The notes beneath the pieces are model-generated. The model was not told where the DNA came from, searched no databases, and worked only from the letters and a program-made list of their open reading frames with translations. This document shows positions 43,288-64,000 of a stretch of DNA of 64,000 bases, one piece after another. Origin of the DNA: Lunularia cruciata (lineage: Eukaryota > Streptophyta > Marchantiopsida > Lunulariales > Lunulariaceae); the NCBI GenBank assembly GCA_948567375.1, contig OX419758.1, forward strand, positions 10,545,001 through 10,609,000, written 5' to 3'. Made by a program: the position numbers and the translations under genes. Within the stretch, counting starts at the first letter, position 1. Every line of letters starts with the position of its first letter.

Positions 43288-43293
43288 TTTGAG

Positions 43294-45835
43294 GTGGAGA
43301 ATTCAGAATGGATATCTCCAATTGTCATTGTGAAGAAAAAGAATGGTAAGCTTTGGGTATGTGTGGATTACAAGAAGCTCAATGTTGTTACCAAGAAGGA
43401 CTACTACCCATTGCCATTCATTGATGAGATCTTGGAGGAGGTTGCAGGTCATGAGAGGTACAATTTTGGAGATAGTTATAGTGGATATAACCAAATCAAG
43501 ATTGCACCCAAGCATCAACAACTCACCACATTCACCACACCTTGGGGAACTTACGCTTTCAAGGTCATACCTTTTGGACTTTGCAATGCTCCAGCCACAT
43601 TCCAACGGTTCATGAACAAGGTATTTGAACCTTTCATTGGGAAATTTGTGAGAGACTTCATTGATGACTTTTGTGTCTATAGGAGCAAGGAGTAGCACTT
43701 TGAGCACCTAATCAAGGTCTTGTAATGCTTGGATGAGGCAAATGCATCACTCAACCCAAAGAAGTGCATTTTTGGATGTGAAGAAGGTCTACTTTTGGGG
43801 CACATCATCTCCAAGGATGGAATAGCAGTTGATCCTAAGAAGGTGAGGAAAATCTCAGACCTTCTATTCCCTTCAAGCTTGACAAAGTTACGCCAATTCT
43901 TGGAGATGGTTGGGTACTATAGGAGGTTCATCTTCTCATTTTCCAACAAGGCTTATGCATTGACCATCTACATGAAGAAGAGTGTAGATTACATGGTGAT
44001 TTTGGAGGACAAGGAGGCTCTCAAATCTTTTGAGGAGCTCAAGCAATCCCTTGTTGTAGCTCCAATTCTTGCTAAACCTGATTGGAGTAAGCCTTTCATC
44101 CTCTACACTGATGCTTCTAATGTAGCTATAGGATGCAATCTTAGTCAATTAGACCAAGATGGGCATGATCATCCAATAGCTTATGCTAGTAGGCAAATGG
44201 TTTCAGAAGAAAAGAACTACTCTGTCACAGAGAGAGAAGGATTGGCAGTGATCTTTGGTCTCAAGAAGTTTAGACACTACTTGATTGGAGAAAAAGCCAC
44301 CATTGTCACAGATCACAAGGCTTTGAAGTACATCTTCAACAAGCCTAATGTTGAAGGGAGATTTGCAAGGTGGATGAAACTCTTGTCTGAGTATGACTAC
44401 ACCATTGAGGATAGGCCAAGAAAGAAACATGCAAATGTTGATTTGTTATCTAGAGCCTATGATCATGATGGAGATGAGCCAGTGGATGATTCCTTCCTGA
44501 ATGAGGAGCTCATGACAATCTCAATCACTCAAGAGGTTCCAATGGAGTACAAGGAGATTGTGGATTTTGTGACAAGAGGTAACTATCCAAAAGGGATGCA
44601 TGCTAGGGAGAGGAAGGCCCTTGCAGCAAGATCTAGACCTTACACAATGGTGGAGGATATTCTTTTTCACCAATGAGCATATGGTCTACTTCAAAGAGCA
44701 ATGGGTAATGAAGAGTCTATCCTACTTGTAAAGGAGTTTCATGAAGGTTTAGTCTGTGGAGGACACTTTGTAGGAAAGGTGATTGCTTTCAAGATTTTAG
44801 ATGCAGGTTACTATTGGAGAGGGATTTTCAATGATTGTCTTGATTATTGCAAAACTTATCATATTTGTCAAACTTTTGCTAGAAAGTCTACATCCACTCC
44901 ACCACTTAGATCAATTCCATCGCTAGGACCTTTTGAGAAGTGGGGAATTGATTTTGTAGGTCTTCTCAATAGAACTTCAAGGAACAATCAATATATTGTG
45001 GTAGTTACTAATTATCTTACCAAGTGGGTTGAGGCTAGACCATTGAGGTACAAGAATGAAGATGAAGTGGGTAGATTTCTTTATGAATGCATTATCACTA
45101 GGTTTGGATGCCCTTTGGAGTTGGTTTTTGATATAGGAGGAGAGTTTATAGGAAGCATTACTACAAACATGCTATGACATTTCTCTATCACACATGGAGT
45201 AACTACATCCTATAAACCAAATTCCAATGGCTTGGCAGAGAGAACCAATCAGACCTTGTGCATGATGTTGGCCAAAGATGTAGAAATGGAGGGAGCTAAA
45301 CATCATTGGGACAAGAGGATTCATGCATTTTTGTGGGAGTATAGGACAACCATGAAGACTTCCCCCAGATATTCTCCATTTCAATTGGTATATGGTATTG
45401 AGTCTACTTGACCTATTCACTTTGATCTTCCTACCTTCCAAAGCATTCATAGGAGATTGAAGAAAGCACAAGGAGGTGATGTAGAGAAGTCAAGGAAGGA
45501 ACAACTCATGGAGTGGAAGAGGCAAGAGCAATTGCTATGGTTTGAGTGGAACAAGCCCAAAGGAAACAAAAGGAGAGCTATGACAAGAGGCAAGGCAAGA
45601 AGAAGGTGGAGCCTTTCAAAGAAGGTGATTGGGTAATGTTGTTTGATTCTATTTGATTCACGAGAGTGCAAAAGAAGTTTTTGCCTAAGTACTTTAGACC
45701 TTTCATAGTGGAGAAGGTGTGGAGAAATTACACCTATGATCTCAAGGAGTTGGGAGGAAGACCCTTTGATAGGATTAACCATGATAAGTTGAAAATGTAT
45801 CATAGAATGAAAGAGACCTTCACTTTGAGGACAAA
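43294..45835 (+). pseudogene. gypsy-1 copy 1 pol remnant
   Basis: Frames at 43294-43695, 43729-44676 and 44701-45177, with later pieces, together cover reverse transcriptase from SEWISPIVIVKKKNGKL through the catalytic FIDDF. They continue through the RNase H segment with YTDASNVAIGCNLS and WARW-like RWMKLLSEYDYTIEDRP, then the integrase zinc region (HICQTF) and core. Stops interrupt all three enzymes, so no full product is made. The RNase H active-site aspartate in DAS is kept here (44110-44112), unlike in copy 2. Confidence 0.9.
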
Positions 45836-46239: not shown

Positions 46240-46515
46240 ACTAACTATAGGTCAAGTACATCTAGGACATAACCACTATCCTTGAGGAACCACCACGAGG
46301 GGAGGAGTCATACATGCCATATGCCATCCTCTCAAACAACTATCACACACTAACATAGTAGTAGCTCCACCAGAAAAGCCACATAACATACACCTCAAGC
46401 CTGCACGTACAAGTGCCAAGCTTGGGTCCATAGTACCATCAATGTTTGGGAGGTGGCATGGTGCACAATTGTGCACATGATCCTTCCAAATAACCCCATC
46501 ACGTCCTTCTAACAC
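46240..46515 (-). pseudogene. PHD finger at the C-terminus of the DNMT-gypsy integrase
   Basis: The minus strand reads VIWKDHVHNCAPCHLPNIDG, then LRCMLCGFSGGATTMLVCDS, CLRGWHMACMTPPLVVVPQG, a TAG stop, and WLCPRCT. This is the C4HC3 PHD pattern: C-x2-C, then C-x2-C with x4-H-x2-C, then the hallmark G-stop-W-x-C-P-x-C. PHD fingers usually bind the histone H3 tail. It lies directly downstream of the integrase in the same strand, where chromoviruses carry a chromodomain, so an integration-targeting role is plausible. That role is inference. The single stop replaces one residue between G and W of the family's GxW hallmark. Confidence 0.88.
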
Positions 46516-46529
46516 AAGGACTCAAGATG

Positions 46530-47374
46530 GCAAAACCTCATGCACTCTCAAGATAGTGCAGCCTATCGAAACATCAAGTGTTGTCGGTGTTGTCTGCTAT
46601 AGATATACATAGTTGCATGGATGAAATCGACGGATCGAGGGTCTATAACCTCCTCCTTGAATGGTAGCATAGCGTAAAGTATCTCTATGTTGAGCAATCA
46701 CCAAGTTCTCAAAAGCCATCGGCATCACTCTCCAAAAGATCTCTGCCCACTAAGAACATGTGCTCATCCATACATCTGGGTTATCTAAGTTCAAAACTAT
46801 AGTAGCATCTTGACAAATGGCTGTAGGTAAATTTGGATCTTGTCCATAAATTAGAAAGTACGGAGAGAAGGATGCTAAGGAGGCTTGCCGGCTGAACCGA
46901 TAGCCCATGGCCAACCAAGGTAACTAGAGATCCCAATCTCCCAAGTGGCCTCTCTGCAAACCATACTTTTGCAATCCTCTCTTCACCGTCTGAACCACTC
47001 TCTCTGGTAAGCCATCTACTTCAAGGTGATCTCAAGAGGTAGTATGGTGATCAATCAAAGCCTTGTCACACAAGACCTGAAACTCCCCCAAGAACTCTAT
47101 ACCTTGATCAGTCAAAACCTCAACTGGTGCACCAAAATGACTAAGAACTCAATCCAAGAACAAGTAAGTTGTCCCTTTACTAGACTTGTCAGGGAGTGCA
47201 ACCAACTCAATCCACTTGGAGAAGTGCTCCACCATCACCAAAACATACCGATGATGTCTCATGGTCAGCGGTAAAGGTCTAGCAAAGTCCAAACTCCAAT
47301 AGTAACCCAATCCCATGATAGGTAATGCGTGTAATTGTGGCGTAGGAGCATTGAATGATGCTCTAACTTGGTCA
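46530..47374 (-). pseudogene. Integrase core and C-terminal domain of DNMT-gypsy copy A
   Basis: Read on the minus strand from 47374: VCDQVRASFNAPTPQLHALP, then WSLDFARPL (first aspartate), RYVLVMVEHFSKWIELVALP, VLTDQGIEF (second aspartate), then about 35 residues to the glutamate of DGLPERVVQTVKR. After the core come ASFSPYFLIYGQDPNLP, RVMPMAFENLVIAQHRDTLR and a DYVYL-like segment that precedes the PHD finger. At least four stops interrupt it. The catalytic triad is otherwise present. Confidence 0.88.
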
Positions 47375-47379
47375 CAAAC

Positions 47380-47817
47380 TATGACAACCTGGCAAATATC
47401 ACTTTTGCGGTAATCGGGTAATTAAAGTTTGTTCCCGCAGAGATACTAGTCAAAATTGGTCAAATACAAAGTCAAATGTCACAATGTAGTTCTTCTTGGT
47501 TGCATCTTTTATCTCTCAAGTAGAAACCACACCCAGAAGAGAGTAACAAGCACTGATTCGCAGTCTTGTCACAAATTCACACTCCTTAATCTTAACTCCA
47601 TCAAATCTTTCCAAACAATCTTGATTGTGATGATTCAAGTTCTCTCAAAAACAACACTTCACTACAAAACTACTTTGCCTCAGAATTGTGTTCCACCCCT
47701 CCACTAAAGGCATAACTTCCTCGATAAAAATTGCTTCACATCAACTTTGTGCTGCACTCACAAATGTAGAATACTACCAACACTACAATTCCCCTCAGAT
47801 CTATCAAGGCATTACTC
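47380..47817. mobile_element. Inserted sequence X2, left part (LTR-like, split by gypsy-1)
   Basis: It begins TATGACAACCTGGC right after the target duplication CAAAC and resumes beyond gypsy-1 at 55061, ending GTTTACCACA at 56531. The total is about 1.9 kb with TG/CA-type ends (the left end mutated to TA) and no coding capacity. It fits a solo LTR or a small non-autonomous LTR element inserted into the methyltransferase gypsy. Confidence 0.65.
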
Positions 47818-48507
47818 TGTAACACCCATTTATGCATGTGTGTGGTATTGTGATATTTAGCTTGGTATTACAAGTACTTAAGAGATATTATTTATATAGA
47901 GATAAAGGATGGTTCTATATTAGTCATGGTTAGCTAAAGTTAGTCATAGCTAAGATAGATGGGACCTTACTTTAGAGGAAGTAGAAAAGATGAGCACCAC
48001 TATTTTGGATTTTAGTGTGTTGACTTGGTATTATTCCTAGGTGTTTGGCTTTGGGGAAAGAGTTGAGAACTCTTGGGCCCGCAAGCCTTTTTGTTTTGGA
48101 TTCTTCTTTAGTCCAAGGATAGCCCATGTGAAGGAATCCTTGCTTTAGTGGTTGGGTCAAGATAAGACCACATGCTTAGGGGAATATGCCCATGTGAATG
48201 GATATTCCTTTCTACTTTTTGACTTTACTTGACTTTTAGTCTAGTAACTTGAGTTACAACGGTAATTAGTAACTTTGGTACGTAACTATTTCACAAGTAT
48301 ATAAACAAGGGGTGGGGAGGTACTCACCATCCTTTCATTTTGCAACTATCTCTCTCTCATTGAGTTCTCTAGTGAGCAATGTCTTGAGTCTTGGAGTGTT
48401 AGCCTTGGAGGAGTATGATGGAATTGGGGTTCCTTGCCTTCTTGTCTATGGTGCGCTACCATAATAGCCATCAGAGGTTCATCGTGAGTGAGAGATAGGC
48501 CGGCTCA
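47818..48507 (+). repeat. gypsy-1 copy 2 5' LTR
   Basis: The LTR starts TGTAACACCCATTTATGC and ends GGCCGGCTCA. It contains a TATA-type element at 48298-48305. It matches 54372-55060 almost base for base. Confidence 0.94.
48298..48305 (+). promoter_or_regulatory. Putative TATA box of gypsy-1 5' LTR
   Basis: TATATAAA followed by a GC-richer stretch ('acaaggggtgggg') in the last third of the LTR is the usual place for the RNA polymerase II start of LTR elements. It is preserved in the 3' LTR. Confidence 0.6.
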
Positions 48508-48513
48508 CATTTT

Positions 48514-48532
48514 TGGTTCCCTTGCCGGGACC
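48514..48532 (+). promoter_or_regulatory. gypsy-1 primer-binding site, probably tRNA-Glu
   Basis: TGGTTCCCTTGCCGGGACC lies six bases after the 5' LTR. From memory the 3' end of plant tRNA-Glu complements TGGTTCCGTTGCCGGG, which leaves one mismatch in the first 16 bases. The related degenerate site of gypsy-3 differs. Confidence 0.6.
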
Positions 48533-49344
48533 TCTCTAGAAGGCAAGATAATGTTCCACGTCCAATTCTACATTAGGCAGAAGGAGGCTATGAGAGCTCA
48601 CTTGGAGAGAACATTAGGAGAGGAGAGGGCTGACCTTATGTTAGAGAACCAAGATCCATTTGTATACCCTGTAGTTCATTATGATGTCTTTGAGGTGATG
48701 TTGTACATCTTGTACACATGAGAGGAATTGGAGAGATTGTGTGAGGTGGATTGCAGATTTTGGGGATTAAGGTGATTTTGGGCAAAATCTCAAGTTTGAG
48801 ATCTGGACTTGAGATTTCTATACATGATAGCTTGGGTTATCTTTCAGTTAGCACACTTGAAATTATTGAGAGAGCTTCCATGCGCACTGGGCTAGAATTT
48901 TTGAAAGTTGATAGGGTAAAGTGCTCCCGCAACTGCATGCTCTCTGGAAAATTGTACAGAGTCTGCCATTTCTTCAATTTTCAGTGAATTGTCCTGAAAA
49001 TTTCCAAGAAAATTCAGTGCATTGTATCCTACCTACTTCCACAAACATTAGAGAGAGATCGTTTTTGCGCAGGGCGTTATGAGTTTTTGAAGTGAGGGGG
49101 GTGGTTTTCAGACCAAATCTGAAATATGGGTGCTGAATAGAAAGGTGTCTAGGCCAAATGGCTCAATGAAAAGATCTGAAATTTTGCAGGGAGGGACACC
49201 CTGGGTTGTGATCAATTGTGGAAAATTTCAGAGGACTGTGACATATTGGTTGGGAGATTTGAGTGACATTGTGAGGAAGGGTCAATTCTGCAGAGTGGAG
49301 ATCTCATGCATGAGAAGTTTGAGATCAACAAAAAGCATGTTTGA
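48533..49344 (+). other. gypsy-1 leader with broken open frames
   Basis: Open pieces at 48533-48721, 48751-48987 and 49130-49396 have protein-like composition (for example RAHLERTLGEERADLMLENQ) but are separated by stops and shifts. They lead into the knuckle-bearing frame at 49345, so they may be the N-terminal part of the same upstream protein. I recognise no domain in them. Confidence 0.4.
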
Positions 49345-49842
49345 GTGTTTAGATTCATCTTGGGGAACATGGAGGGTCATCAAGAGTGGAAATTGAGATT
49401 ATGCAAGGTTCCCCAAGGGTTTGAGGTGATTGTAGGGGTGGATTTGAGGAAAAGAGAGTTTACAATAGAATTTGAAGAGAGTGTTGAGAGGATCCAAAAA
49501 CCTACACCACTTGGAGGAAAGAGTGAGTCTAAGTGCTTTCTATGTGGAGAGAAGGGACATAAGGCAAGTTCATGTCCATTGACCTTTGAGAGCAAGAGAT
49601 TGAGGGAAAGGAGAGGCTTACTTGACTTGGATTTGCATGTTGGACCTTCTTCACCAAGATTGGGAGGGAGAAGATCTAAGACCAAGGAGTTGTGTGAGGT
49701 TTGTGGAGTTGAAGGACTTCCAAAAGGACATGAGTGTAGTGGAGTAAAAGCACTTTTGGAAACTTTGGTGAAGGATCTTGGAGAGAGTCTTAGTACAGCT
49801 ACAGAAATACTACCACCTTCATCAGCTAGTTCTCAAGATTAG
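49345..49842 (+). CDS. gypsy-1 upstream ORF with zinc knuckles (accessory protein)
   Basis: A 165-residue frame. After about 55 residues a knuckle, CFLCGEKGHKASSC, is seen (C-x2-C-x4-H-x4-C). A basic region follows (FESKRLRERRG), then a second cysteine cluster (CEVCGVEGLPKGHEC) and a polar tail ending SSASSQD. The gag capsid-like region comes only in the next frame at 50078, so the nucleic-acid-binding knuckles are encoded upstream of gag, the reverse of the normal order. It may be a separate nucleic-acid chaperone or the remains of an extra ORF acquired by this family. The true start may lie further upstream, since 49130-49396 overlaps in another frame. Confidence 0.6.
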   Translation: MFRFILGNMEGHQEWKLRLCKVPQGFEVIVGVDLRKREFTIEFEESVERIQKPTPLGGKSESKCFLCGEKGHKASSCPLTFESKRLRERRGLLDLDLHVGPSSPRLGGRRSKTKELCEVCGVEGLPKGHECSGVKALLETLVKDLGESLSTATEILPPSSASSQD

Positions 49843-50077
49843 TGATGGAGATAATCTTTCAACTTATGGATAAACTATCCATGAGAGTTAGATTAATTTG
49901 CACTCTAGGATTTGATGTTGCTATAGAAATCTTGGAGCAACCTGAACCTTTTGTGTTCCCTAGAGTGGATTATTCTCAGATGGTGTTAGTCATGTATATA
50001 CTCTATTAGTAATAGAGTGAGAGAAAAGAAAAGAGAAAAAAAAATTTGAGAGAAAAGAAAGATAGTGAGGGGTTAAG

Positions 50078-52171
50078 ATGGGGAAATTTCCGGTTTTCTT
50101 TGGCAAGGATGGAGAAGATGTGGAGGCCTTTGTGAGAGACTTCAAGAGAGCTTGCATAGGAAACAATGAGAGGAGGAAGAATGAGTGGGCTTCATTATTA
50201 CCAGATTTCTTTGAGGATGCAGCACTTACATGGTATGAGTCAAAATACCAAAAGAGAGAGAGGAGAGAGGGGGAAGAGGAGTCTTGGGAGACTTTGACTT
50301 CAGCACTCATTGAGAACTTTCTTCCTGATGAGAGTTATGAGAGATTGATGAGTGAGGTTACATTTCTCAAGCAAGGAGATGGAGAGAAAGTGAGGGTCTA
50401 TGTGGAAAGAGTGGAAAAGTTGGAGTCCAGATTTCGCATAGTGTTGAGGAAGGGTAGGGATGATGTGGAGACTACAATGATTGGCATAGGGGCCATGCTC
50501 ACCAAGAATTTTGTGGGAGGATTGAGACCACAAATTAGAAGCAAGGTGAGATATGAGAAACCTTCTTCCAAGGTTGAAGCTATCAAGATCGCAATTCGTA
50601 TGGAGGAGAGTTTGGAAGGGGATGAGAGTGATTTGGTGGTGAAGGAGGTTGTGCATCCTCCTCAAGGCTACAAGTATGGTGGAACTTCTGATACTTTAGT
50701 GACAAGGGTTGCACCACAAGTAGTAGTTGCTCCAGTTCTTGCACCTCCACCAAAAGATCCACTTCAAACCATCACAGAACAACTTGCGGATCTCAAGATC
50801 AATGTGGTGCAACTATGGGAGAAGAACCCTACCTTGAGAAAGGAGCTTAGAGGTGGTTTAAGTTCTACAAGGAGCAAGAAGAAGAAGAAGGCAAAAGTTC
50901 CAGTATCAATGAGGGTGGTGGATGCCAAGCCAGCACCATGGGAAGCTTGTGAATATGCCTCCAAGATTGATGTGAGAGTGAATGGTCACAACATCAAGGA
51001 TGCATTGGTTGATGGAGGATCAGCAGTGAATGCCATGTCAGAAAGGTTGATGAAGAAGTTGGGTATGATACCCTCAAGACCTTCAACATTTGTGGTGAGC
51101 ATGGCAAACAAGCAACAAGTTCAACCAATAGGGGTGATGGATAAGGTGGTAGTTTCAGTTATGGGAGTTCAAAATCTCATGACTTTCCAAGTCTTGAAGG
51201 ATTCAAGCTATGACTTACTTCTTGGGAGGCCATGGTTGAGAGCAGCACGCACAACTGATCGATGGCACAAAGGGTACTTGAGGATTGGGCCATCAAACCA
51301 TAGAGTCACAGTTCCTGTGACTAACACCACCAACACTTCACATTCAGATACACCATCTTCTGATTATTGGGAATCAGATTATGAAGAAGGAGCTTCAGGT
51401 GTGGACACAAGCATGGAAGAGGAGACTTCCACGGAGGAGGATGAATCTGAATCTGATTCAGATGTGTATCCTTTGTGTGCTATGGATTTTGCACCTAAGC
51501 CAGAGGTTTTGAAGGACCCAGATAAATCACCATTGACACTTGAGGAGGTAGAGAGAAGGTTATCTACCCTCAAGTATGGCCCAAATGTTACCAAGGAGGA
51601 GAAGGTGAGATTTGAGGAGATTTTCCGCAAGTTCATCCATGTGTTTGCTTTTAGTTACAAGGATTTGAAGGAAGTCACCTTGGAGGAGCACAAGATAGAG
51701 GTGGAGTCACATGCAAGACCAATCCGCCAAAAGCAACGTCATATTAGCCCACCAATATCTTTGGTTGTGAAGGAGGAGATTGATAAGCTCAAGGAGGCTG
51801 GATTTATCTTTGAGGTGGAGAATTCAGAATGGGTGTCTCCAATTGTCATTGTGAAGAAAAAGAATGGCAAGCTTCGGGTATGTGTGGATTACAAGAAGCT
51901 CAATGTTGTTACCAAGAAGGACTACTACCCATTGCCATTCATTGATGAGATCTTGGAGGAGGTTGCAGGTCATGAGAGGTACAGTTTTGGAGATGGTTAT
52001 AGTGGATATAACCAAATCAAGATTGCACCAGAGCATCAACAACTCACCACATTCACCACACCTTGGGGAACTTACGCTTTCAAGGTCATGCCTTTTGGGC
52101 TTTGTAATGCTCCAGCCACATTCCAACGGTTCATGACAAGGTATTTGAACCTTTCATTGGGAAATTTGTGA
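50078..52171 (+). CDS. gypsy-1 copy 2 gag-protease-reverse transcriptase (5' part of polyprotein)
   Basis: A 697-residue frame. A gag core (about 1-180) contains FVRDFKRACIGNN, LLPDFFEDAALTWYE and FLPDESYERLMSEV. A linker with PPKDPLQTITEQLADLKINV follows. The protease region (about 300-400) shows ALVDGGSAVNAM, where the usual DSG is DGG, and LLLGRPWLRAA. After an acidic spacer (EEETSTEEDESESDSD) comes reverse transcriptase with SEWVSPIVIVKKKNGKLRVC, VDYKKLN, YYPLPFIDEIL and MPFGLCNAPATFQRFM. The frame ends wrongly just before the catalytic motif because one base is missing at about 52135 compared with copy 1. The stop is at 52169-52171. Confidence 0.9.
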   Translation: MGKFPVFFGKDGEDVEAFVRDFKRACIGNNERRKNEWASLLPDFFEDAALTWYESKYQKRERREGEEESWETLTSALIENFLPDESYERLMSEVTFLKQGDGEKVRVYVERVEKLESRFRIVLRKGRDDVETTMIGIGAMLTKNFVGGLRPQIRSKVRYEKPSSKVEAIKIAIRMEESLEGDESDLVVKEVVHPPQGYKYGGTSDTLVTRVAPQVVVAPVLAPPPKDPLQTITEQLADLKINVVQLWEKNPTLRKELRGGLSSTRSKKKKKAKVPVSMRVVDAKPAPWEACEYASKIDVRVNGHNIKDALVDGGSAVNAMSERLMKKLGMIPSRPSTFVVSMANKQQVQPIGVMDKVVVSVMGVQNLMTFQVLKDSSYDLLLGRPWLRAARTTDRWHKGYLRIGPSNHRVTVPVTNTTNTSHSDTPSSDYWESDYEEGASGVDTSMEEETSTEEDESESDSDVYPLCAMDFAPKPEVLKDPDKSPLTLEEVERRLSTLKYGPNVTKEEKVRFEEIFRKFIHVFAFSYKDLKEVTLEEHKIEVESHARPIRQKQRHISPPISLVVKEEIDKLKEAGFIFEVENSEWVSPIVIVKKKNGKLRVCVDYKKLNVVTKKDYYPLPFIDEILEEVAGHERYSFGDGYSGYNQIKIAPEHQQLTTFTTPWGTYAFKVMPFGLCNAPATFQRFMTRYLNLSLGNL

Positions 52172-54147
52172 GAGATTTCATTGATGACTTTTGTGTCTAT
52201 GGGAGCAAGGAGGAGCACTTTGAGCACCTAATCAAAGTCTTGCAACGCTTGGATGAGGCAAATGCATCACTCAAGTGCATTTTTGGATGTGAAGAAGGTC
52301 TACTTTTGGGGCACATCATCTCCAAGGATGGAATAGCAGTTGATCCTGAGAAGGTGAGGAAAATCTCAGACCTTCCATTCCCTTCAAGCTTGACAAAGTT
52401 ACGCCAATTCTTGGGAATGGTTGGGTACTATAGGAGGTTCATCTTCTCATTTTCCAACAAGGCTTATGCATTGACCATCTACATGAAGAAGGGTGTAGAT
52501 TACATGGTGATTTTGGAAGACAAGGAGGCTCTCAAAGCTTTTGAGGAGCTCAAGCAATCCCTTGTTGTAGCTCCAATTCTTGCTAAACCTGATTGGAGTA
52601 AGCCTTTCATCCTCTACACTAATGCTTCTAATGTAGCTATAGGATGCAATCTTAGTCAATTAGACCAAGATGGGCATGATCATCCAATAGCTTATGCTAG
52701 TAGGCAGATGGTTTCAGCAGAGAAGAACTACTCTGTCACAGAGAGAGAAGGGTTGGCAGTGATCTTTGGTCTCAAGAAGTTTAGACACTACTTGATTGGA
52801 GGGAAAGCCATAATTGTCATGGATCACAAGGCTTTGAAGTACATCTTCAACAAGCCTAATGTTGAAGGAAGACTAGCAAGGTGGATGATACTCTTGTCTG
52901 AGTATGACTACACAATTGAGGATAGGCCAGGAAAGAAACATGCAAATGCTGATTTGTTATCTAGAGCCTATGATCATGATGGAGATGAGCCAGTAGATGA
53001 TTCCTTCCCGGATGAGGAGCTCATGACAATCTCAGTCACTCAAGAGGTTCCAATGGAGTACAAGGAGATTGTGGATTTTGTGACAAGAGGTAACTATCCA
53101 GAAGGGATGCATGCTAGGGAGAGGAAGGCCCTTGCAGCAAAATCTAGACCTTACACAATGGTGGAGGATATTCTTTTTCACCAAGGAGCAGATGGCCTAC
53201 TTCGAAGAGCAGTGGGTAAGGAAGAGTCTATCCTACTCATAAAGGAGTTTCATGAAGGTTTAGTATGTGGAGGACACTTTGTAGGAAAGGTGACTGCTTT
53301 CAAGATTCTAGATGTAGGTTACCATTGGAGAGGGATTTTCAAGGATTGTCTTGATTATTGCAAAACTTGTCATGTTTGTCAAGCTTTTGCTAGAAAGTCT
53401 ACATCCACTCCACCACTTAGATCAATTCCATTGCTAGGACCCTTTGAGAAGTGGGGAATTGATTTTGTAGGACCTCTCAATAGAACCCCAAGGAACAATC
53501 GGTACATTGTGGTAGTTACTGATTACCTTACCAAGTGGGTTGAGGCTAGACCATTGAGGGACAAGAATGAAGATGAAGTGGGTAGATTTCTTTATGAATG
53601 CATTATCACTAGGTTTGGATGCCCTTTGGAGTTGGTTTTTGATAGAGGAGGAGAGTTTACAAGAAGCATTACTACAGCCATGCTACGACATTTCTCTATC
53701 ACACATAGAGTAACTACATCCTATAAGCCAAATTCCAATGGCTTGGCAGAGAGAACCAATCAGACCTTGTGCATGATGTTGGCCAAAGATGCAGAAATGG
53801 AGGGGGCTAAACATCATTGGGACAAGAGGATTCATGCAGTTTTGTGGGAGTATAGGACAACCATGAAGACTTCCACTGGATATTCTCCATTCCAATTGGT
53901 GTATGGTATTGAGTCTACCTTACCTATTCACTTTGATCTTCCTACCTTCCAAAGCATTCATAGGAGATTGAAGAAAGCACAAGGAAGTGATGTAGAGAAG
54001 TCAAGGAAGGATCAACTCATGGAGTTGGAAGAGGCAAGAGCAGTTGCTATGGTTCGAGTGGAGCAAGCCAAAGGAAACAAAAGGAGAGCTATGACAAGAG
54101 GCAAGGCAAGAAGAAGGTGGAGCCTTTCAAAGAAGGTGATTGGGTAA
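52168..54147 (+). CDS. gypsy-1 copy 2 pol, 3' part: reverse transcriptase end, RNase H, integrase
   Basis: A 659-residue frame starting within reverse transcriptase at MRDFIDDFCVYGSKE (catalytic FIDD instead of YxDD). RNase H follows with YTNASNVAIGCNLS: the active-site aspartate of the DAS triplet is asparagine here (52621-52623) but aspartate in copy 1. The integrase zinc region has CKTCHVCQ. The core has WGIDFVGPLN, LVFDRGGEF and NGLAERTNQTL, giving the D-D-E set, then GYSPFQLVYGIESTLP. One base missing at about 54068 relative to copy 1 shifts the last codons, and the true C-terminal tail continues at 54117. Confidence 0.9.
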   Translation: MRDFIDDFCVYGSKEEHFEHLIKVLQRLDEANASLKCIFGCEEGLLLGHIISKDGIAVDPEKVRKISDLPFPSSLTKLRQFLGMVGYYRRFIFSFSNKAYALTIYMKKGVDYMVILEDKEALKAFEELKQSLVVAPILAKPDWSKPFILYTNASNVAIGCNLSQLDQDGHDHPIAYASRQMVSAEKNYSVTEREGLAVIFGLKKFRHYLIGGKAIIVMDHKALKYIFNKPNVEGRLARWMILLSEYDYTIEDRPGKKHANADLLSRAYDHDGDEPVDDSFPDEELMTISVTQEVPMEYKEIVDFVTRGNYPEGMHARERKALAAKSRPYTMVEDILFHQGADGLLRRAVGKEESILLIKEFHEGLVCGGHFVGKVTAFKILDVGYHWRGIFKDCLDYCKTCHVCQAFARKSTSTPPLRSIPLLGPFEKWGIDFVGPLNRTPRNNRYIVVVTDYLTKWVEARPLRDKNEDEVGRFLYECIITRFGCPLELVFDRGGEFTRSITTAMLRHFSITHRVTTSYKPNSNGLAERTNQTLCMMLAKDAEMEGAKHHWDKRIHAVLWEYRTTMKTSTGYSPFQLVYGIESTLPIHFDLPTFQSIHRRLKKAQGSDVEKSRKDQLMELEEARAVAMVRVEQAKGNKRRAMTRGKARRRWSLSKKVIG

Positions 54148-54323
54148 TGTTGTTTGATTCCATTCGATTCAAGAGAGTGCAAAAGAAGTTTTTGCCTAAG
54201 TACTTTGGACCTTTCATAGTAGAGAAGGTGTGGGGAAATTACACTTATGATCTCAAGGAGTTGGGAGGAAGACACTTTGATAGGATTAACCATGATAAGT
54301 TGAAGATGTACCATAGAAGGTAG
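54117..54323 (+). CDS. gypsy-1 integrase C-terminal tail (GPF-type), shifted frame
   Basis: This is the continuation of pol after the frameshift. EGDWVMLFDSIRFKRVQKKF, LPKYFGPFIVEKVWGNYTY and LKELGGRHFDRINHDKLKMY form the GPY/F module of gypsy integrases, which binds DNA and supports multimerisation. No chromodomain follows, as the frame stops at 54323 only 48 bp before the 3' LTR. Confidence 0.85.
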   Translation: MEPFKEGDWVMLFDSIRFKRVQKKFLPKYFGPFIVEKVWGNYTYDLKELGGRHFDRINHDKLKMYHRR

Positions 54324-54371
54324 AGAGACCTTCACTTTGAGGACAAAGTGAAAACTTAGTCCGGGGGTAAA

Positions 54372-55060
54372 TGTAACACCCATTTGTGCATGTGTGTGGT
54401 ATTGTGATATTTAGCTTGGTATTACAAGTACTTAAGAGATATTATTTATATAGAGATAAAGGATGGTTCTATATTAGTCATGGTTAGCTAAAGTTAGTCA
54501 TAGCTAAGATAGATGGGACCTTACTTTAGAGGAAGTAGAAAAGATGAGCACCACTATTTTGGATTTTAGTGTGTTGACTTGGTATTATTCCTAGGTGTTT
54601 GGCTTTGGGGAAAGAGTTGAGAACTCTTGGGCCCGCAAGCCTTTTTGTTTTGGATTCTTCTTTAGTCCAAGGATAGCCCATGTGAAGGAATCCTTGCTTT
54701 AGTGGTTGGGTCAAGATAAGACCACATGCTTAGGGGAATATGCCCATGTGAATGGATATTCCTTTCTACTTTTTGACTTTACTTGACTTTTAGTCTAGTA
54801 ACTTGAGTTACAACGGTAATTAGTAACTTTGGTACGTAACTATTTCACAAGTATATAAACAAGGGTGGGGAGGTACTCACCATCCTTTCATTTTGCAACT
54901 ATCTCTCTCTCATTGAGTTCTCTAGTGAGCAATGTCTTGAGTCTTGGAGTGTTAGCCTTGGAGGAGTATGATGGAGTTGGGGTTCCTTGCCTTCTTGTCC
55001 ATGGTGCGCTACCATAATAGCCATCAGAGGTTCATCGTGAGTGAGAGACAGGCCGGCTCA
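54372..55060 (+). repeat. gypsy-1 copy 2 3' LTR
   Basis: It starts TGTAACACCCATTTGTGC after a purine-rich CCGGGGGTAAA and ends GGCCGGCTCA. It carries the transcription end signals of the element. It differs from the 5' LTR at about five positions, including one missing G near 54867. Confidence 0.94.
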
Positions 55061-56531
55061 TAGCTCTGATTGCACTTCACTCAAGATCAAACACACAAAA
55101 TGAAGATCAAGGTTACGGAATCCAACATCCAACAAGCACACTGACTTGCACTTCAAAATTCTCCCAACACTCACAAACACAAACACAAAATTGATACTTG
55201 GAATCAAGCTCAAGTGACGAGCACTGCTTCATAGCACTTTGCTTTATCTATTCTAAGAAATAATGAGCATTAAACAACATATGACTACAAATGCCACTCT
55301 TAAATAGTAAAGCAATTGATAGTTACTAACAACTATACCCTTCTATAACAACTCTACAAACCTGCAGATCCGAAATGACAATGCACCTCTTCATATCTAC
55401 CCCTTCAAATCTCAAATCTGTTTCTACTCCGATCCAATGTCTACCTTGACTTTGGCTTTCAATCCCTAAGTAACTTCACTTACTACTACTCTATCCTCGG
55501 GTTTCACAACTCCCAAATCTTCTACTAATTCTAACATTTCTCTTTCATGATCTATAATTCCTATCATAGTTAAGCCTTTTAAATCTCTCGACCCACTCTT
55601 CTCTAAAGTGTCAAATGTCAAATCCAAAGACACATGCACTCCTATATCTCTTACTTTGGGTCTAACTACTATCAATTCCTTTACTAATTCTACTATGTCA
55701 TCATCAAGAATTGTAATTGAAAGCATGAGTACACTATCTACGCCTTCAATTTGCAACCCACTTCCCCTAATCACTCATGTAATTGACTCAAAGACACTTA
55801 CTATCTCATCTTGCACTTTGGGTTCATTCACTACGGCTATTTCTCTTCTAATTTTATCCTATCTTCAATCAAAATTGAAATTGAAGTCATGGGTATCCTA
55901 AATATTGTTTTTCCTTACTCTAACTTCCTCTAGTCCTCATGGCAAGACTCCCAAAGTCACCTTCACTGCACTCCAAGGTCCGACTACCTTAGGTTGAATC
56001 ATATTTTTCTTGAGGTAAAGTCTTTAGACCCGAAGTCATGTAAACCCAAAATCCAAAGTCCAAAGTAGTATAGACTCGAAGACACCAACCCAAAGACACT
56101 AAACTACTTTGTACATCCACTCCCAAAACTTCAATTGCTTGTAATTTGTGCTACATACCTCTAAACTCAATGATTTTGGTAGCAATGGAAAGCCCTAAAC
56201 TAGACGTTTCCAACGAAATATAGCATGCATGATTTGGACATGTTGTCATTGAGATACAACCCCCGCAAGAATCCTAACTTACAATTTCTATTCCTCCTTC
56301 GGGTCTGCCCTCCTTCAGCGTCTGATCCAAGTTTTTCCTCCTCTGACACGAAGTAAGCTTCTTTGGGTTTGATCCAATCTGAGTTCTTCTTCTTTTAACA
56401 CAAAATTTACTTCCTCAAGCCTGATCAAAACACAAGTTTCCACTCATTTCTTCCCCATTTGGTTGCAATTTGGTTTCAGCAAGGCACTTCTTCTTCAAAA
56501 CTCGTCTAAAATGAAAAATGTGTTTACCACA
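55061..56531. mobile_element. Inserted sequence X2, right part
   Basis: This is non-coding, A+C-rich sequence continuing from 47817. It has short repeated words ('ttctactaattct', 'tttactaattctac') near 55500-55700 and no transposon protein. It ends GTTTACCACA, followed by the target duplication CAAAC at 56532-56536. The open frame at 55608-55901 has low-complexity S/T/L composition and is not considered a gene. Confidence 0.6.
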
Positions 56532-56536
56532 CAAAC

Positions 56537-57129
56537 CACACATCTGGCAACAAACTGCTGCACCTCGGTCTGCATACCGTGCCACCAATAATGACTCTGG
56601 ATTTAGCTATATGTAGGTTTGACTCCAAAATATCCTAGCTCCTCATGAGCATGACGGACCAACTGTGGTCTTTGAGATGGAAGTGGTACTACTTGCACTC
56701 TACCATCCTCTCATACATGCAAAAGGTGACTACCCTCCAATCTAAACCATCTGGCTTGCTGAAGAACACGGTCTCTCTCCTTGGTCCCAACTATGCCACC
56801 CACAACACTAGTGTGAAGATAGTCCATCACTAAGACATCATCATGAATGTCTTGCTGAATTGTACCAATATCTTCACTCTCTGGATCTGTGACCTCAATA
56901 ACTCCTCCTGTATGGGCTAAGAGAGATACCACCAAAGCCTCAAAAATATACATAGAAAGGCATATGCATGCCAACTTGGCACCATCTCCTCATTTGTCTC
57001 ACCATGCTAACGTGCTCCGGTCTAATCTTGCTGGCTAGGACATGGGTTTCTACTCAACCCATCTGCATCACAGTTCACCACTCCAAGTATATAAACAACC
57101 ATAAAATCATACTCCTATAAAATCAGAGC
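56537..57129 (-). pseudogene. Integrase zinc-binding (H2C2) region and RNase H-integrase connection of DNMT-gypsy
   Basis: On the minus strand the segment ends with HYWWHGMQTEVQQFVARCVV, the second half of the H-H-C-C zinc region. It continues in frame at 47374 after the inserted sequence. Upstream (56711-56974) is the spacer with QARWFRLEGSHLLHV, typical of the pre-integrase part. Stops occur. Confidence 0.8.
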
Positions 57130-57410
57130 TCATTGTGCAAGCTTCCTTGAAAGCTTATCGGACTCCATCAACCACTTCAATGGCTGATGACCAGTGATGA
57201 GAGTGAAGGGGTTACCAAATAGGTAACATAAAAAATGTGCTACTACCCAAATTGCTGCCAAGCACTCTCCCTCATATGAACTATACTTTGCCTTTGCTAA
57301 ATGATTGGAGCGACTAGCATAGGCTACCACAAACTCCTTCCCCTCATCATCATGTTGGGTGAGCTCCGCTCCAAGCCCCAACATACTCCAATCAATATGA
57401 ACCTGAAATG
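57130..57410 (-). pseudogene. RNase H of DNMT-gypsy copy A
   Basis: The minus strand reads HIDWSMLGLGAELTQHDDEG, then KEFVVAYASRSNHLAKAKYS, SYEGECLAAIWVVAHFLCYL and FTLITGHQPLKWLMESD. This is the gypsy RNase H with the E of YEGE. The first catalytic aspartate is in HIDWS and the third is altered (TGHQ where TDHQ is usual). One or two frame breaks are present. Confidence 0.88.
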
Positions 57411-58350
57411 GTCATCCTCTGATCAGTCTCCTCAAAATAGGAGCAGATGTCAACCTCTCCTTGAGCTCTACAAAAGCTCTCTCCTGCTCATCTCCCCAAC
57501 ACCACTCTTGTGTAAGCTTGGTCAGCTTCGTCAAGGCCTTGGCAATGGCACTAAATCCTCTAACATAGCGGCGATAGAAGTTTGCCAACTCAAGGAATGC
57601 TCGCACTTTGCTCACATCCGTAGGCCAAGGAATACATGCAATAGCTTCCACCTTGGTTTGTTGAACACCAAGTCCTCCGAGGTAGATAGTGTGACCCAAA
57701 TACTCAACCTGCTTGTAGAAGAACCTACACTTCCCAAGATGTAATTTGAGTCCATGAGATCTCAACATCTCAATAACCTCCAACAACTATCTCTCATGCT
57801 CCTCCACAATAGTGTTATAGACCAAAATGTCATCAATATAGCACCGAGCAAAATCCAATCCAACTAGGATCCTATCCATGACCCTTTGGAACTCAATAGG
57901 AGCATTCTTTAACCCAAACGGTAAGAACCTCCACTAATATAACACATACTTGCCGTGAGGATCAATAGCCTAAAATGTTGTCTTGGACTTATCCTCCTCC
58001 CTGATTAGCAACTAATGATATCCCGCTCAAAGATCCAAAGTATTGAAGATCTTTTCATGCCCAATCGCATCAAAAATCTCCTTCGGTGTAGGCATGGCAT
58101 ACCGAATAGGCATGGTCTATCGGTTGATAGGACGGTAATCTCCACACATCCGCCTATCTGTGTAGTTGCTATGCATATCCTTCTTGGCTAGCATCATTGT
58201 CACTGATGCATACTCTCTATGTGAAATATACATCAAACCAGCCTCAAAAAGGTCACTACTTTGGCTTTGAATCAATGTCCTCTCCATCTCACTATATCAA
58301 TAAGGACATCAAAAAACTGGTATATCGCTAGTCAGCTCAATCTGTATACC
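57411..58350 (-). pseudogene. Reverse transcriptase of DNMT-gypsy copy A
   Basis: The minus strand carries RMCGDYRPINR, MPTPKEIFDAIGHEKIFNTL, DPHGKYVLY, WRFLPFGLKNAPIEFQRVMD, ARCYIDDILVYN (YIDD at 57829-57840) and EYLGHTIYLGGLGVQQTKVE, ending PWPTDVSKVRAFLELANFYR. All seven blocks of a Ty3/gypsy reverse transcriptase are recognisable, with about five stops. The domain follows the methyltransferase directly, separated by about 350 bp. Confidence 0.9.
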
Positions 58351-58699
58351 ATGTCCTTTCAGAGTACCCAAATCCTTCATACTGAATGCAAAACAACTTG
58401 TGTGGCTCCTCAAGAACCTCCAAACCCTCCGTCTTACCTCTCCAGTAAGCTTGGGTCCAAGATCTGGCTCCCAAGTATCCTCTTTAATTGTAGTAGGAGT
58501 AGAAGACGTACTGACTGGCTGCTACACTAGGCCCTTGGGAGCAATAGTGTCATGCTTCCGACCGCTAGAGATCCCAACCTCTGTGTGAAAAACTCCCTCC
58601 ACTTTGGCTGCAAGCTCCACACGTCCTCTAGCTGCATCCCATGTGGACCAAGGGTGTAATCCAAGTAGCACACGCTCACCTAGATGGACTCCAAGTAGA

Positions 58700-59830
58700 C
58701 CACTCTCCCTAGTAGCTATTGGATGTGTCCCAAGAGTACCATGTCCACTCAGTCCATCACCCCCAGCATGTGCCTGAATCATCTTGATAGGCACAAGGCT
58801 CACAAGTGTCCGAGTGGTGATGCCTATCAAGTGCATCCTACGCTGCTCTACCAAGCCAAGGCTCACAATCCAAGTCAAACAGTTTAGGTCCATAGCCTGA
58901 CCTAACACTTGACGCCTGGATGCCTCTGACATTGCTGGAACAACGGTAATACTAGTGTGAAAACCCATCGCCCGCTCTCTCTCATCAGCGTTGGGCTCCA
59001 CCAACTACTATAACTGTGAGTCCCAAACAAGTCCAGGTCCTCCTTCTCAAAAAGCATAAGAGCCTAGGAAACTCATGAGTGTGGGAAATGCGGCTCTAGG
59101 TTGTCCAACTAGGTTCACCACTGCCATAGGTGACCTATCAGCCACTACCACTGTTTGAGACTTACGCCCAACATCCAAGATATCATCAACAAGGACGTGG
59201 TCAAGTTGCTAAATCCCATCATAAGCATGATGTAAAACCTCTCTGGGTAAGAGGTTCGTCCACCAAAGACAAAGATGATGAGCCCGTGATCCCACTCGGG
59301 CTGCATCTAACAATACAGCAGGTCCCATCCAAGAATGGACCTGATGTGTACTCGCCACCACTCTAGTGCAAGAATCACCCATCAAGGGAACGTTCTCCAA
59401 AAGGTAAAGTTGGAGAAACAGACTGATGAACCTGGAGATGTCATAATATACGTAACATCTCCCAAACCACACGAGAATGAGGATCCTGAAGACCCAAACC
59501 TCTACCAACACATGTATGTTCCTAACATGGCCATCCAAAAATCACCAAGTGGATAGGCCCATGTCTCTCTAGATCATGCACCCCCAGTAAGGAAATATCT
59601 TCTGGTAGGACCTTTTGGTAATCTCTTACTGCTGACATCAATAATAGCTTTGGATATCGATAGGCCAAGTGTGCCACATGATGTAGAGAGACTCACCTAA
59701 CAATCTTATCTCTCTCTACATACAAGTACCTCTATACTCGTATACTTGCTTGTAATACCGTAGCTAGTCCGGTGGTAATCCCACCAAACAACTCCAATAG
59801 ACATATCCCCTCTATAGGGTACTACCAAGC
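58700..59830 (-). pseudogene. C5 cytosine DNA methyltransferase domain of DNMT-gypsy copy A
   Basis: Minus-strand motifs are in the canonical order. Motif I is LLELFGGITTGLATVLQ (from 59800) and motif II YVERD (59708-59722). Motif IV is IFGWPC (cysteine codon at 59525-59527, followed by a TAG), then RGLGLQDPHSRVVWEMLR. Motif VI is LENVPLMGDS (ENV at 59389-59397), then GPAVLLDAARVGSRAH and LWWTNLLPREVL. Motif IX is EPNADERERAMGF (58961-59003) and motif X LGQAMDLNCLTWI (58882-58902). C5 methyltransferases attack cytosine C6 with the motif-IV cysteine, activate it with the ENV glutamate and use S-adenosylmethionine bound at motifs I and X. The domain lies between protease and reverse transcriptase. 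At least three stops and one frameshift inactivate it. Copy B keeps PCQG in motif IV, so the enzyme was once complete. Confidence 0.92.
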
Positions 59831-60540
59831 AATGAGTGTGGTATCTAGAGGTGTTAAAGTAATCAAAACGGGAGGCTCATCCTCACACTCATCTCTTGAT
59901 GGTACAAAGGCTCCACTCCAAGCCTGCTGCACCAATTGATCTGCATGTTGCTGCAACGCCTCCTCTGAACTCCACAATGGAACATCCAAGGTGGATGGAA
60001 CAATCCCACTCATACTCTAAATCCGAGTGATCTCCTCTGGTACTAGAGTATCCTCTACATGGGCGTTCCCCTCCAACAAGTCACCAGGCCAAGTAACTGC
60101 ACCACTAAAAGCTAAAACTGATGCTACCATGGTCTTGGACTATAGTGAGCCAAGACTGCCACTACTGAAGTGTACTAGTAGGCAACATACCCGTCCATCA
60201 CTAGATTTCAAACTTGGTCTATAGGAGGCTATCTCCTCCCAATAGTCAATACTTAAACCCATGGGATATAACACTGCTCCCCCCAACTAGCACATCATAT
60301 GACTCAGCTACTGTTGCAATAGCCTGAGCTCTCACCCCCAAGCTATCAATCAGATGACCAGGCTGAACTTGGACAACAAGCTCCCCACATGTGATGAACT
60401 ATGTTGAACCACCACCTAGAGATGTTTGGATCTGAAATGGACACCTCTCCACATCGGTCTTTTGTAACTCCAGACCGACAACCGTAGCCTTCCCCAACAT
60501 AAGGAGCTACGCACCAAAGTCTAACAAGACTCTCTATGGT
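59831..60540 (-). pseudogene. Retropepsin of DNMT-gypsy copy A
   Basis: The minus strand from 60535 reads RVLLDFGA (aspartate at about 60519-60521; the family DSGA here has F for S), a stop, then LLMLGKATVVGLELQKTDVE and PFQIQTSLGGGST. Near 60290-60310 comes SYDVLVGGSSVISHGFKY, the second conserved protease block. The segment 59822-60013 (SGIVPSTLDVPLWSSEEALQ) is the linker to the methyltransferase and is also found in copy B. Confidence 0.8.
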
Positions 60541-61600
60541 GTATAGACCTTCCCTGAAGGTCCCACCAAATGGAAAATCCCCCTCTGGTTATCTAATAGG
60601 AAAACACTTGGTGTGAACCGTGCTCTCTCAAAGGCCGGTCTAGTTGGCAACTCCTCCAATCTAGCCGCTACTGCCTGCCATAAACCACTAGTTGCTGAAT
60701 GGATCCCATGCTCCTCAACCAAGTCAGCTCCACTACCAACCACCTCTGCTCTAGTAGTAGGAATTGCATCATCTCTACTCTCACAAAGTGTGGCAGCCAA
60801 CCGGAACACAGGGGTTGGGTCAACTCCCAATGTAAACATGTCATTGGCCAAAAACAAAGGATGCCACATAATCAGCTGAGCCACCCCCAACATCATGCTA
60901 GACTCAGTCTGTGTAGTAGCAGGTGGCTGACTAGTAGGTAGTCCATCATGTACTCCATCATCACCTACCACACTTGCATTGGGATGTCTAGGAACCATGG
61001 ATATTGTATGCAATGCCTTAGATAGCGTGAAAGACTGGGGAAGTCTGACCTATCTCCCAACCTCTCCTCTCTGTGGTCCAACTCCACTAATGCTCCTCTA
61101 GGCTCTGGAGTACGTACTGCACTCTTAGTCACTACTGCAAATGCATCCACCTGTGCTACTTGGCACATGAAGTCCAAAGCATCTCTATCACAAACATATG
61201 AGGTCGAAGCCTCAGCACCCAAATCTGATCTCCTCTGAGCAATAGCTATACTAGCCAATCTTTGCTCCAATTGCTCAATCCGAGTAGCCATAGTTGTATT
61301 AGAAGTAAGGGTAGGTACTGCACTCCTATTAGGTGTAGATCCTCTACCGCCACCTCTACCTCCTCGTCCTCCATGAACTAGAGCTCCTCTACTACTTGCC
61401 ATAACAGCCCTACCACTCCATAACTCTGGGTGTAGGTCAAAACACCAATCACTAGTGTGACCAAATCTATGGCAATGCTCACACTGCTTCTGTGTTGGCT
61501 GTGATGCACCCAAGGTATCAGGTCCACTGCCCTGAGTACACTCTCTCCAATGGTGAGGTCCACCACAAGTCCAACAAGCAACACCACAACTCATTGGTTG
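60541..61600 (-). pseudogene. gag C-terminal part with two zinc knuckles, DNMT-gypsy copy A
   Basis: Frame 61594-60965 (209 residues) begins with CWTCGGPHHWREC, an irregular C-x2-C-x3-H-x4-C knuckle. A regular one follows, CEHCHRFGHTSDWC (C-x2-C-x4-H-x4-C). A glycine-arginine-rich run (GGRGGRGGGRG) and a coiled-coil-like TRIEQLEQRLASIAIAQRRS come next, then a charged tail. A following frame (61013-60534) continues to the protease. The knuckles bind genomic RNA during packaging. Confidence 0.85.
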
Positions 61601-62809
61601 CTACTGACCCAAAAATGAAGGTAAGGGTCTAGAGCTACTAGGCACTCCACTTGCTCCATAGGATCTGGGCTATCCACCTTGTCCTCAAAACCCAACTGGG
61701 CATGGTGCACTCTATTGCGCTCTAGAAGAAGTCATAGCGGTGGATGAGGTCTCCCTACCAAATCTCGATGTCACCACTCTCTCCTCCACCATGTTGAACT
61801 CAATACGCTCAGCCAAACCAAAGACCATTGCCAAAGTAGGCAAAGTAGCCTGCAACAACGTAGCATCACGAACTCTACGTCATAACTCCCTGTCCAATAT
61901 CCCATACCAAAATTGGACTGCCTGGGCCTCAGTAACTCCCTGAGTGAAACTGATCAGCCACCTCATGCAAGTGTTTGCCTCACGTATGCTCTCTCTAGCC
62001 TTCTGTTGGAACTCTTGCAAGCTCCTCAGCTTGTCAATCCGCACTTCCTAGTAGTTCTGCCTCAAACATATGAAGAACTCCACCATGAGGTTAAACCCCG
62101 GTACCACACCACCTCCTGTAGCAGTACCTCCACCCGTAGTAGCACTATCTCCAGCTAGTGCACCTCCACTACCTCCACCAACACTATTCGAGCTAGAACT
62201 CGTAGGTATAGCCAATCTACTCCTGGCCACTGAGCCTGAAGTGATAGAGACATAGTTTAGAGACCAATATTATCTCCATAACTCAATCTCCTCCAAATGA
62301 GCTCTCTTGAACTCATGGTAGTCATCCATTGGCAGATCCTCCAAATGTTGAAACAACCACTTCCATGCCATGAAGGGTGTAAACAAAGTCGGGTTCTACA
62401 TCTGCTACAGATCACACCAACTATCAAACTCCTGGATGAAATCATCCAACTCAATGGTACCCACTGTACCAGAGTAACGCCTAGGGCCTTTAGAGGCCCC
62501 ATAAATCTCATCCATGTCCCACAACAATGGTGCGGACACACCAAGTGCACTCTGAACTAAATCAGCTCTTGTGTCAAACTCCAACTTAGAGTCAATCTCC
62601 TCCCTCACTGGGACCTGAGATACAGGCTGATACCAAGTGCCACTCTGAGTAAACCTACTATGTATTGCAGTGCTATCTCCTTTGGAATCTCCAAAGAACT
62701 CTATTGTGACAAAGTAACCGCAACAACAAACCAGAACCACCAAATGCAACCACAAGTCGCAACTACAAGTACCCCACCAAGTGCCAACACCATCACGTGC
62801 CAATATCAA
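61601..62809 (-). pseudogene. gag N-terminal and capsid part, DNMT-gypsy copy A
   Basis: The minus strand from 62809 shows SRFTQSGTWYQPVSQVPVRE and then WDMDEIYGASKGPRRYSGTV, IELDDFIQEFDSWCDL, WKWLFQHLEDLPMDDYHEFK, a glycine-serine-rich stretch (GGGSGGALAGDSATTGGGTA), and a capsid-like tail (EFQQKARESIREANTCMRWL, LERRVRDAT-like). This is the order of a gypsy gag. Stops break it at several points. Confidence 0.75.
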
Positions 62810-63135: not shown

Positions 63136-64000
63136 TGGCATTTGACATAAGAGAAGTTTGTATCTAAGTCCTAAGCTACCATGATCACCAAGAACGGGAT
63201 CAAACTGCCTCTCCTAGCCAAAGCTACATGTGTATAGATAACAATGGCATAGTTATTAGGACAACAAGTGAGGGTGGACCAGTTGGCTAGGGCACCAGTC
63301 TAGGAACAAGACATCTAGGTGTCAAACCCTGTTGCACAAATCTAGTAGGAAAGGCAGATTTTGCCAACCAATGACCAAGATCTACTCTAAACTAGCTAGC
63401 CTCATGCCATCAAGCTAGCTTGCTGGCCCTTCTAGGCCTTCATAGCCCTATGCCTCAAAGCCTCTAAATGCCCAAATGAGGCTTTTCTTCTTGCCACTTT
63501 GAACCTCCTCCAAACTTGCAAAACTCCTCCAAATCTGGCCAAAATTTGATGTAAACCTTAGAGTTGGTTGACCACCAAATCCCCCGCTAACTCTTCACTT
63601 GAGCCAAATTGAAAACATAGGTTTCTCCAAATCACAAATTTACAATAATAACTTCCCAACTCCACCTTCAATTTTACTTTTTGAGCCCAACTCATAACAA
63701 ATTGGTCATGCCTTCATCTCTTGAGCTCAAAATCACAACTGCTAAAAAATTGCTCATTCTTTGCTCAAAAATTGGCAAGCACTTCCGTACACCGTCTGCC
63801 TTACTGCTAAATCTACATCAATTGAACAAGCTTCTGCACACTAGGGAAAAATGAACTTGAATCGAGCTACCAACGATCCACAAAGCTTGGAAATACAACC
63901 AATACTCAGTTCTTGCACCTGATTTCCCATTGACTTGACTTCTTTGATGTAATTAGATTGTTTACTATTCTCAACTCAACTCAATTCAGATCAGGACTTG
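63136..64000 (-). repeat. Probable 5' LTR of DNMT-gypsy copy A, running off the window
   Basis: The region right of the candidate primer-binding site has no ORF and is C- and A-rich on the plus strand. It would start with TGGCATTTGACA (LTR end ...TGCCA on the minus strand). It cannot be aligned with the 3' LTR stub, which represents the opposite end of the LTR. Confidence 0.4.

Follow-up and report, generated by a model that had tools for sequence, protein, structure and literature searches.

A large Ty3/Gypsy-type retrotransposon family of the liverwort Lunularia cruciata encodes a predicted DNMT3-like C5 cytosine methyltransferase ahead of an in-frame UAG stop

Retrotransposons that carry a C5 cytosine-DNA methyltransferase (MTase) combine a genomic parasite with a writer of the mark that commonly silences it. 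Here, we describe such an element on the minus strand of a 64,000-nucleotide stretch of the Lunularia cruciata genome (the window; positions 10,545,001 to 10,609,000 of contig OX419758.1, G000:C7:10545001-10609000 in the 565,766,749 bases and 74 contigs searched). An initial annotation had placed the MTase at 58700-59830, and this location is correct to within ~200 bases. With the MTase frame of another copy as query (L028:4040-5002), tblastn finds homology of 321 residues at 59842-58879, split into two pieces in different frames, 59842-59408 (81% identical, five stops) and 59406-58879 (89%, four stops), with a joint E-value of ~1e-149. The domain is thus decayed, with nine stops and one frame change, and Pfam gave no match for the two pieces submitted (58522-59004 and 59209-59541). 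Motifs I (LELFGG), IV (PC, then a stop), VI (ENV), VIII, IX and X come one after another along the domain; the initial annotation had read I, II, IV, VI, IX and X.

The other parts of the element were mapped with tblastn unless stated otherwise. Upstream of the MTase lie the end of the 5' repeat A1 (63950-64000; located by blastn from the C8b A repeat), which runs ~146 bases beyond the window (L027 450-646), a decayed Gag region at 61430-62515, in which the core spans 62515-61820 and a pair of CCHC zinc knuckles spans 61624-61430, and a decayed aspartic protease region (60197-60572). Downstream, the C-terminal tail of the first open reading frame (ORF1) is open in this copy (58525-58878, 86%, no stop) and is followed by an in-frame UAG (58522-58524, placed by the junction pattern and tblastn) and the codons CAG CCA. 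Reverse transcriptase (RT; 57622-58341, 83%, eight stops), RNase H (57097-57516, 87%, three stops) and a first part of the integrase (56531-56722) come next. A ~9-kb insertion (47380-56529), which interrupts the blastn alignment with the 3' part of C8b, splits the element inside the integrase and holds another Gypsy element on the plus strand (50069-54320). Beyond it are the second part of the integrase (46966-47382) and a PHD finger at the C-terminus of ORF2 (46255-46410, 90%). The window copy is dead.

Better-kept copies reveal the coding layout. Nine copies were read, each in two stretches, and most have a break somewhere in one frame. ORF1 is open over 1428 codons in C1a and C8a, and its first methionine in C8a is codon 99, which matches the start of relatives in Marchantia (MDEIYGA vs MDGMYGA). 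It encodes Gag with two zinc knuckles, the protease and the MTase, and terminates at the UAG. The protease motif is LLDSGAQ in C8b, with F for S in C8a, and Pfam also recognizes the protease in relatives P0013, P0018 and P0020. ORF2 continues in the same frame past the UAG, is open over 1037 codons in C8b and C1b, and encodes RVT_1, RNase H, H2C2, rve and the C-terminal PHD finger (PF00628; 2.2e-10 and 7.4e-10 in L029 and L030). This finger occupies the end of the integrase ORF (L029, L030; also P0023 and kin), in the place that a chromodomain is known to take in other Gypsy elements. The enzyme order protease-RT-RNase H-integrase is that of Ty3/Gypsy elements. A polyprotein-like layout had been proposed from the window alone: the MTase indeed sits between the protease (60572-60197) and the RT (58341-57622), however the in-frame UAG behind it means that MTase and RT do not share one uninterrupted frame.

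The stop context is UAG CAG in all 15 distinct copies with a recognised junction, the window's own among them, and the next codon is CCA in 13, CTA in one and TCA in one. The search pattern allowed four substitutions, stop included, and poorer-kept junctions would escape it. Tobacco mosaic virus uses UAG-CAR-YYA for readthrough. The stop context is thus like that of readthrough viruses and retroelements, while the frame ahead of the stop here also holds a protease and an MTase; readthrough itself is predicted from sequence. Because the MTase lies upstream of the putative recoding site, it would be made at the level of Gag.

We consider it near certain that the domain, as predicted from its sequence, is a DNMT3-like C5 cytosine-DNA methyltransferase. 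PF00145 matches open frames of other copies at 1.5e-8 (L006), 2.3e-9 (L007), 6.5e-9 (L008) and 3.4e-7 (L028), all above the curated cut-off, with matches that span just ~80-110 residues of the profile. Across nearly its whole length the fold is that of DNMT3, in agreement with the C5 MTase identity claimed in the initial annotation. Against PDB sequences DNMT3A scores 70 bits and HhaI 34-35, and DNMT2 is a weak profile match (1e-3). Foldseek and VIA list neither DNMT1 nor DNMT2 in their first 50 rows, which is no evidence against kinship. Compared with DNMT3A and DNMT3B, the element MTase is 19-26% identical, ORF1 holds none of the other DNMT3 domains, and the PHD finger sits in ORF2. All 22 MTase copies keep the motif IV cysteine and the E and N of ENV. 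The cysteine is invariant in the nine rows of row-set A2 and conserved at 90% or more in row-set A1 (32 rows), and E and N are invariant in both sets. In four metagenome relatives (P0027, P0034, P0039, P0042) motif IV reads GWEC or GFEC rather than GWPC. The ratio dN/dS over the 22 copies (at least 88% identity and 90% coverage) reveals purifying selection on the MTase.

The family is large. A genome search with PF00145, in which 123 of 2161 candidates were scored, gave mostly matches to about profile positions 48-120, many of them in long frames. With the 321-residue MTase as query, 124 of 13,257 first-look candidates were scored (one being the query's own place), and all 124 match 320-321 of the 321 residues at 95-100% identity, some with one to four stops. 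Hence, there are at least 124 copies and, given the number of candidates, probably thousands. The two A repeats are 98.0, 97.6, 98.7, 99.1, 97.3 and 89.4% identical in six copies, and this high identity (97.3-99.1% in five of six) indicates that several copies are young; copy C8a retains only 77 bases of A1. It is near certain that the window element belongs to a large, in part recently active Ty3/Gypsy-type family encoding this MTase. The doubling of the Lunularia cruciata genome has been ascribed to Ty3/Gypsy bursts (2023; PMC9985172), and the word "methyltransferase" does not occur in the main text of that report.

The ends of the element depart from the Ty3/Gypsy pattern. The 5' end is a single repeat A1 of ~450 bases, and the 3' end consists of B1 (108 bases), A2 (450) and B2 (108), B being present twice in eight of nine copies. 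This arrangement is known from DIRS/PAT-type elements. In other copies the MTase lies inside the terminal repeats, however these are split direct repeats in DIRS order, and two identical long terminal repeats (LTRs) at the ends were not found. Thus, the element is of Gypsy type by its enzymes and is not a canonical LTR element. It shares split direct repeats with DIRS/PAT-type elements and differs from them by an rve (DDE) integrase and target duplications. Pfam lists up to E 1 contain rve and no tyrosine recombinase family, and the pairing of such a recombinase with absent target duplication, as in DIRS elements, does not apply here. The outer ends read TGTC...GACA, and an exact 4-bp target duplication flanks six of the seven copies with both ends read, C1b being the exception. 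In six of six copies the 14 bases directly after A1 are reverse-complementary to a stretch inside A1 itself, with no more than one mismatch; this complementarity suggests self-priming of the Tf1 kind. A G-rich tract adjoins B1 in nine of nine copies. Primer site and G-rich tract together predict B-A LTRs; inserted copies instead start at A and finish at B. Six copies have the palindrome GACAGCTGTC at the B|A joint and in another it is one base off, whereas in two of the nine it was not found. We infer that end-to-end joining of the complementary DNA (cDNA) is followed by its reopening at B|A through the DDE integrase. Such an end structure bridges LTR and DIRS-type replication.

Relatives occur beyond Lunularia. 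A protein search, in which 7989 candidates were scored, yielded at least 46. Fourteen carry the name Marchantia polymorpha and are 56-73% identical, one is a Sphagnum fallax model (49%) whose annotated version lacks motif IV, and the other 31 are unnamed proteins from metagenomes or other sources (31-67%). No Klebsormidium nitens name is among the 46. With the closest of these relatives in Marchantia, the land-plant host suspected from the window alone is likely. Plastid psaB scores highest against PDB 9lut_B (1714.6 bits), then against 8htu_B (1672.9) and 6l35_B from Physcomitrium (1670.6). Two layouts can be distinguished. In Marchantia, Sphagnum and the unnamed P0003, P0013, P0014, P0016-P0018 and P0020 the MTase ends a Gag-type protein or precedes the RT. 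The Marchantia and Sphagnum elements are known from protein models alone, of which most end after the MTase and six continue into RT, RNase H or integrase (P0004, P0006, P0009, P0011, P0012, P0022). Among the 24 proteins P0023-P0046, by comparison, 19 have the MTase downstream of RNase H, with 14 of these continuing into integrase; P0043 and P0046 have MTase-RT-RNase H-integrase in a single frame, and three (P0031, P0040, P0045) have no RT within the protein. In an MTase tree of 40 rows, for which eight of the 46 relatives were dropped for length, the group with the Gag-side or pre-RT layout (Marchantia, Sphagnum and the seven unnamed proteins) forms one clade (100/98), and the long-branched pair P0043 and P0046 is its sister (88/86). 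An RT tree without outgroup (22 rows) joins three bryophyte RTs with the same two proteins at 100/99. The integrase tree (23 rows, three of 20 inner branches well supported) places P0043 and P0046 beside P0041 (89/86) and not beside the bryophyte elements. These trees are most simply read as a single move of the MTase domain inside one lineage, which they do not prove. The C-termini of P0023, P0041 and P0045 resemble by eye a Rossmann N6-adenine methyltransferase (P0041: DPW.GT ... DLNP ... TSPHF). We rejected this second methyltransferase as a candidate: the P0041 piece had no PDB sequence match, and no such Pfam family appeared in the five relatives scanned over this tail or in their kin.

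Capture of the MTase from the liverwort's own DNMT3 was also considered. Typed by motifs, the host genes among the PF00145 matches are DNMT3-like (L001, L004) and DRM-like (L002). The DRM-like frame has its motif order turned round and gave no match to a profile of the retrotransposon MTases at E 1e-6. On that profile, MTases of IMG/VR contigs score up to 61 bits, and the DNMT3-like gene of the host scores 53. A 23-row tree (12 retrotransposon, 10 viral and one host; the viral rows picked by score from at least 80 loci) sets the retrotransposon MTases on one side of a long 100/100 branch, with host and viral sequences on the other. The viral MTases score as well as the host gene, and these comparisons do not establish host capture; "DNMT3-like" thus describes fold and profile, not descent.

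The window holds further retroelements. A second, older MTase-bearing element lies at 137-2596 on the minus strand, with MTase homology at 1264-332 (60% identical, 11 stops). Another Gypsy family, without MTase, is represented on the plus strand by the nested element at 50069-54320 and by 43287-45807, and has a 1611-codon open frame in L025 (2804-7636).

What might the element gain from its MTase? In our preferred reading, ORF1 would be translated as Gag-protease-MTase, so that the MTase is made and packaged at the Gag level, while the UAG-CAR-YYA stop would occasionally be read through, adding RT-RNase H-integrase-PHD. In the particle or preintegration complex, the MTase would methylate the new element cDNA, probably at CG, and the copy would arrive pre-marked with silent-chromatin methylation, in which it can persist. 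As a whole, we regard this as the best explanation, with a probability of about 0.6. Several observations weigh against it. The motif VIII arginines differ in one or two of the 22 MTase copies, 15 of which were drawn from the best genome matches under an 88% identity floor that favours well-kept copies. In the one copy folded (L029) no RNA structure beyond chance was found 3' of the stop (z 0.13). A footprint of the MTase was not found: C/T differences per site among seven copies of the element (3' side) are 0.087 at CG, 0.069 at CHG and 0.014 at CHH, compared with 0.34, 0.21 and 0.05 among segments of a different Gypsy family that has no MTase. The excess of CG and CHG over CHH is 5-6x in the MTase element and 4-7x in the other, and by this pattern both families look methylated at CG and CHG. 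Finally, the MTase of KnitGypsy-Dnmt3 from Klebsormidium gave no methylation in yeast, a result that its authors call inconclusive (PMC5890265). As a separate observation, CpG observed/expected ranges from 0.49 to 0.54 over the seven copies, compared with 0.13 for the single element of the other kind of Gypsy that was measured.

Alternatively, the MTase might mainly target host loci, for instance silencing defence genes or shaping the wider methylome. The abundance of copies (13,257 candidates, 124 of them scored) could supply a real dose and the PHD finger suggests chromatin contact, however fusion to Gag and protease ahead of the stop points to particles and the mutation pattern resembles that of a Gypsy family without MTase, which makes this unlikely. 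Somewhat less likely still is a non-catalytic or RNA-directed job, such as nucleic-acid binding or methylation of transfer RNA or genomic RNA. GWEC or GFEC in place of GWPC would fit it, while the conserved motif IV cysteine and ENV residues, the DNMT3 fold nearly throughout and the weak DNMT2 match argue against it. De Mendoza et al. (2018; PMC5890265) raise in their discussion that an MTase might restrain its element, a self-limited copy number benefiting host and element alike; with at least 124 well-kept places and several young copies here, we rate this lower again. A host MTase fragment caught by chance in one element copy, as the absent Pfam match of the window's own pieces might have hinted, is virtually excluded: it is refuted by the 124 near-full-length places, and the junction is alike in 15 copies, with at least 46 relatives elsewhere. 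Extending cDNA methylation by a packaged MTase, one may picture an old lineage, neither plain LTR nor DIRS, whose MTase is made at Gag level by way of a readthrough stop and methylates cDNA in the particle, which is then circularised and reopened at the palindromic B|A joint by the DDE integrase, and whose bursts contributed to the doubled Lunularia genome. This fuller picture is possible but tentative.

Cytosine methylation is a main plant weapon against transposons, and an element with its own writer, under selection and abundant, is a direct test case. It opens the question why a parasite brings the mark that normally silences it; if the proposed role is true, a parasite that inserts pre-methylated copies would be making use of host silencing instead of escaping it. 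Marchantia polymorpha is a genetic model, and as it holds relatives (14 of the 46 matches), the role could be tested in a living host.

Retrotransposons bearing an MTase are an already published kind, and the precedents named in the initial annotation exist as Gypsy elements in Klebsormidium and DIRS and LINE elements in Symbiodinium (PMC5890265). KnitGypsy-Dnmt3 of Klebsormidium nitens, published in 2018, shares with the liverwort element the Gypsy enzyme set, a DNMT3-like MTase under purifying selection (Ka/Ks <0.2 in K. nitens) and, as the Fig. 4 legend puts it, repeats "the same as that of a DIRS retrotransposon" together with Gypsy domains (PMC5890265). By the published description, its DNMT lies in the Pol ORF and K. 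nitens copies are fewer than those in Symbiodinium (PMC5890265), whereas the liverwort MTase ends the Gag-protease ORF before the UAG, and the liverwort element has many copies and relatives in bryophytes. SymbioDIRS-Dnmt3 and SymbioLINE-Dnmt are alike in carrying a DNMT and belong to other retrotransposon classes, and SymbioDIRS-Dnmt3 methylates CG in yeast (PMC5890265). Streptophytes and dinoflagellates are further described as having DNMT3 members in their Copia and DIRS elements (PMC12344493). Set beside these systems, and as far as a light check of the literature goes, the bryophyte hosts, the high copy number, an MTase in the Gag frame before a readthrough-type stop, the two layouts and the end structure are new.
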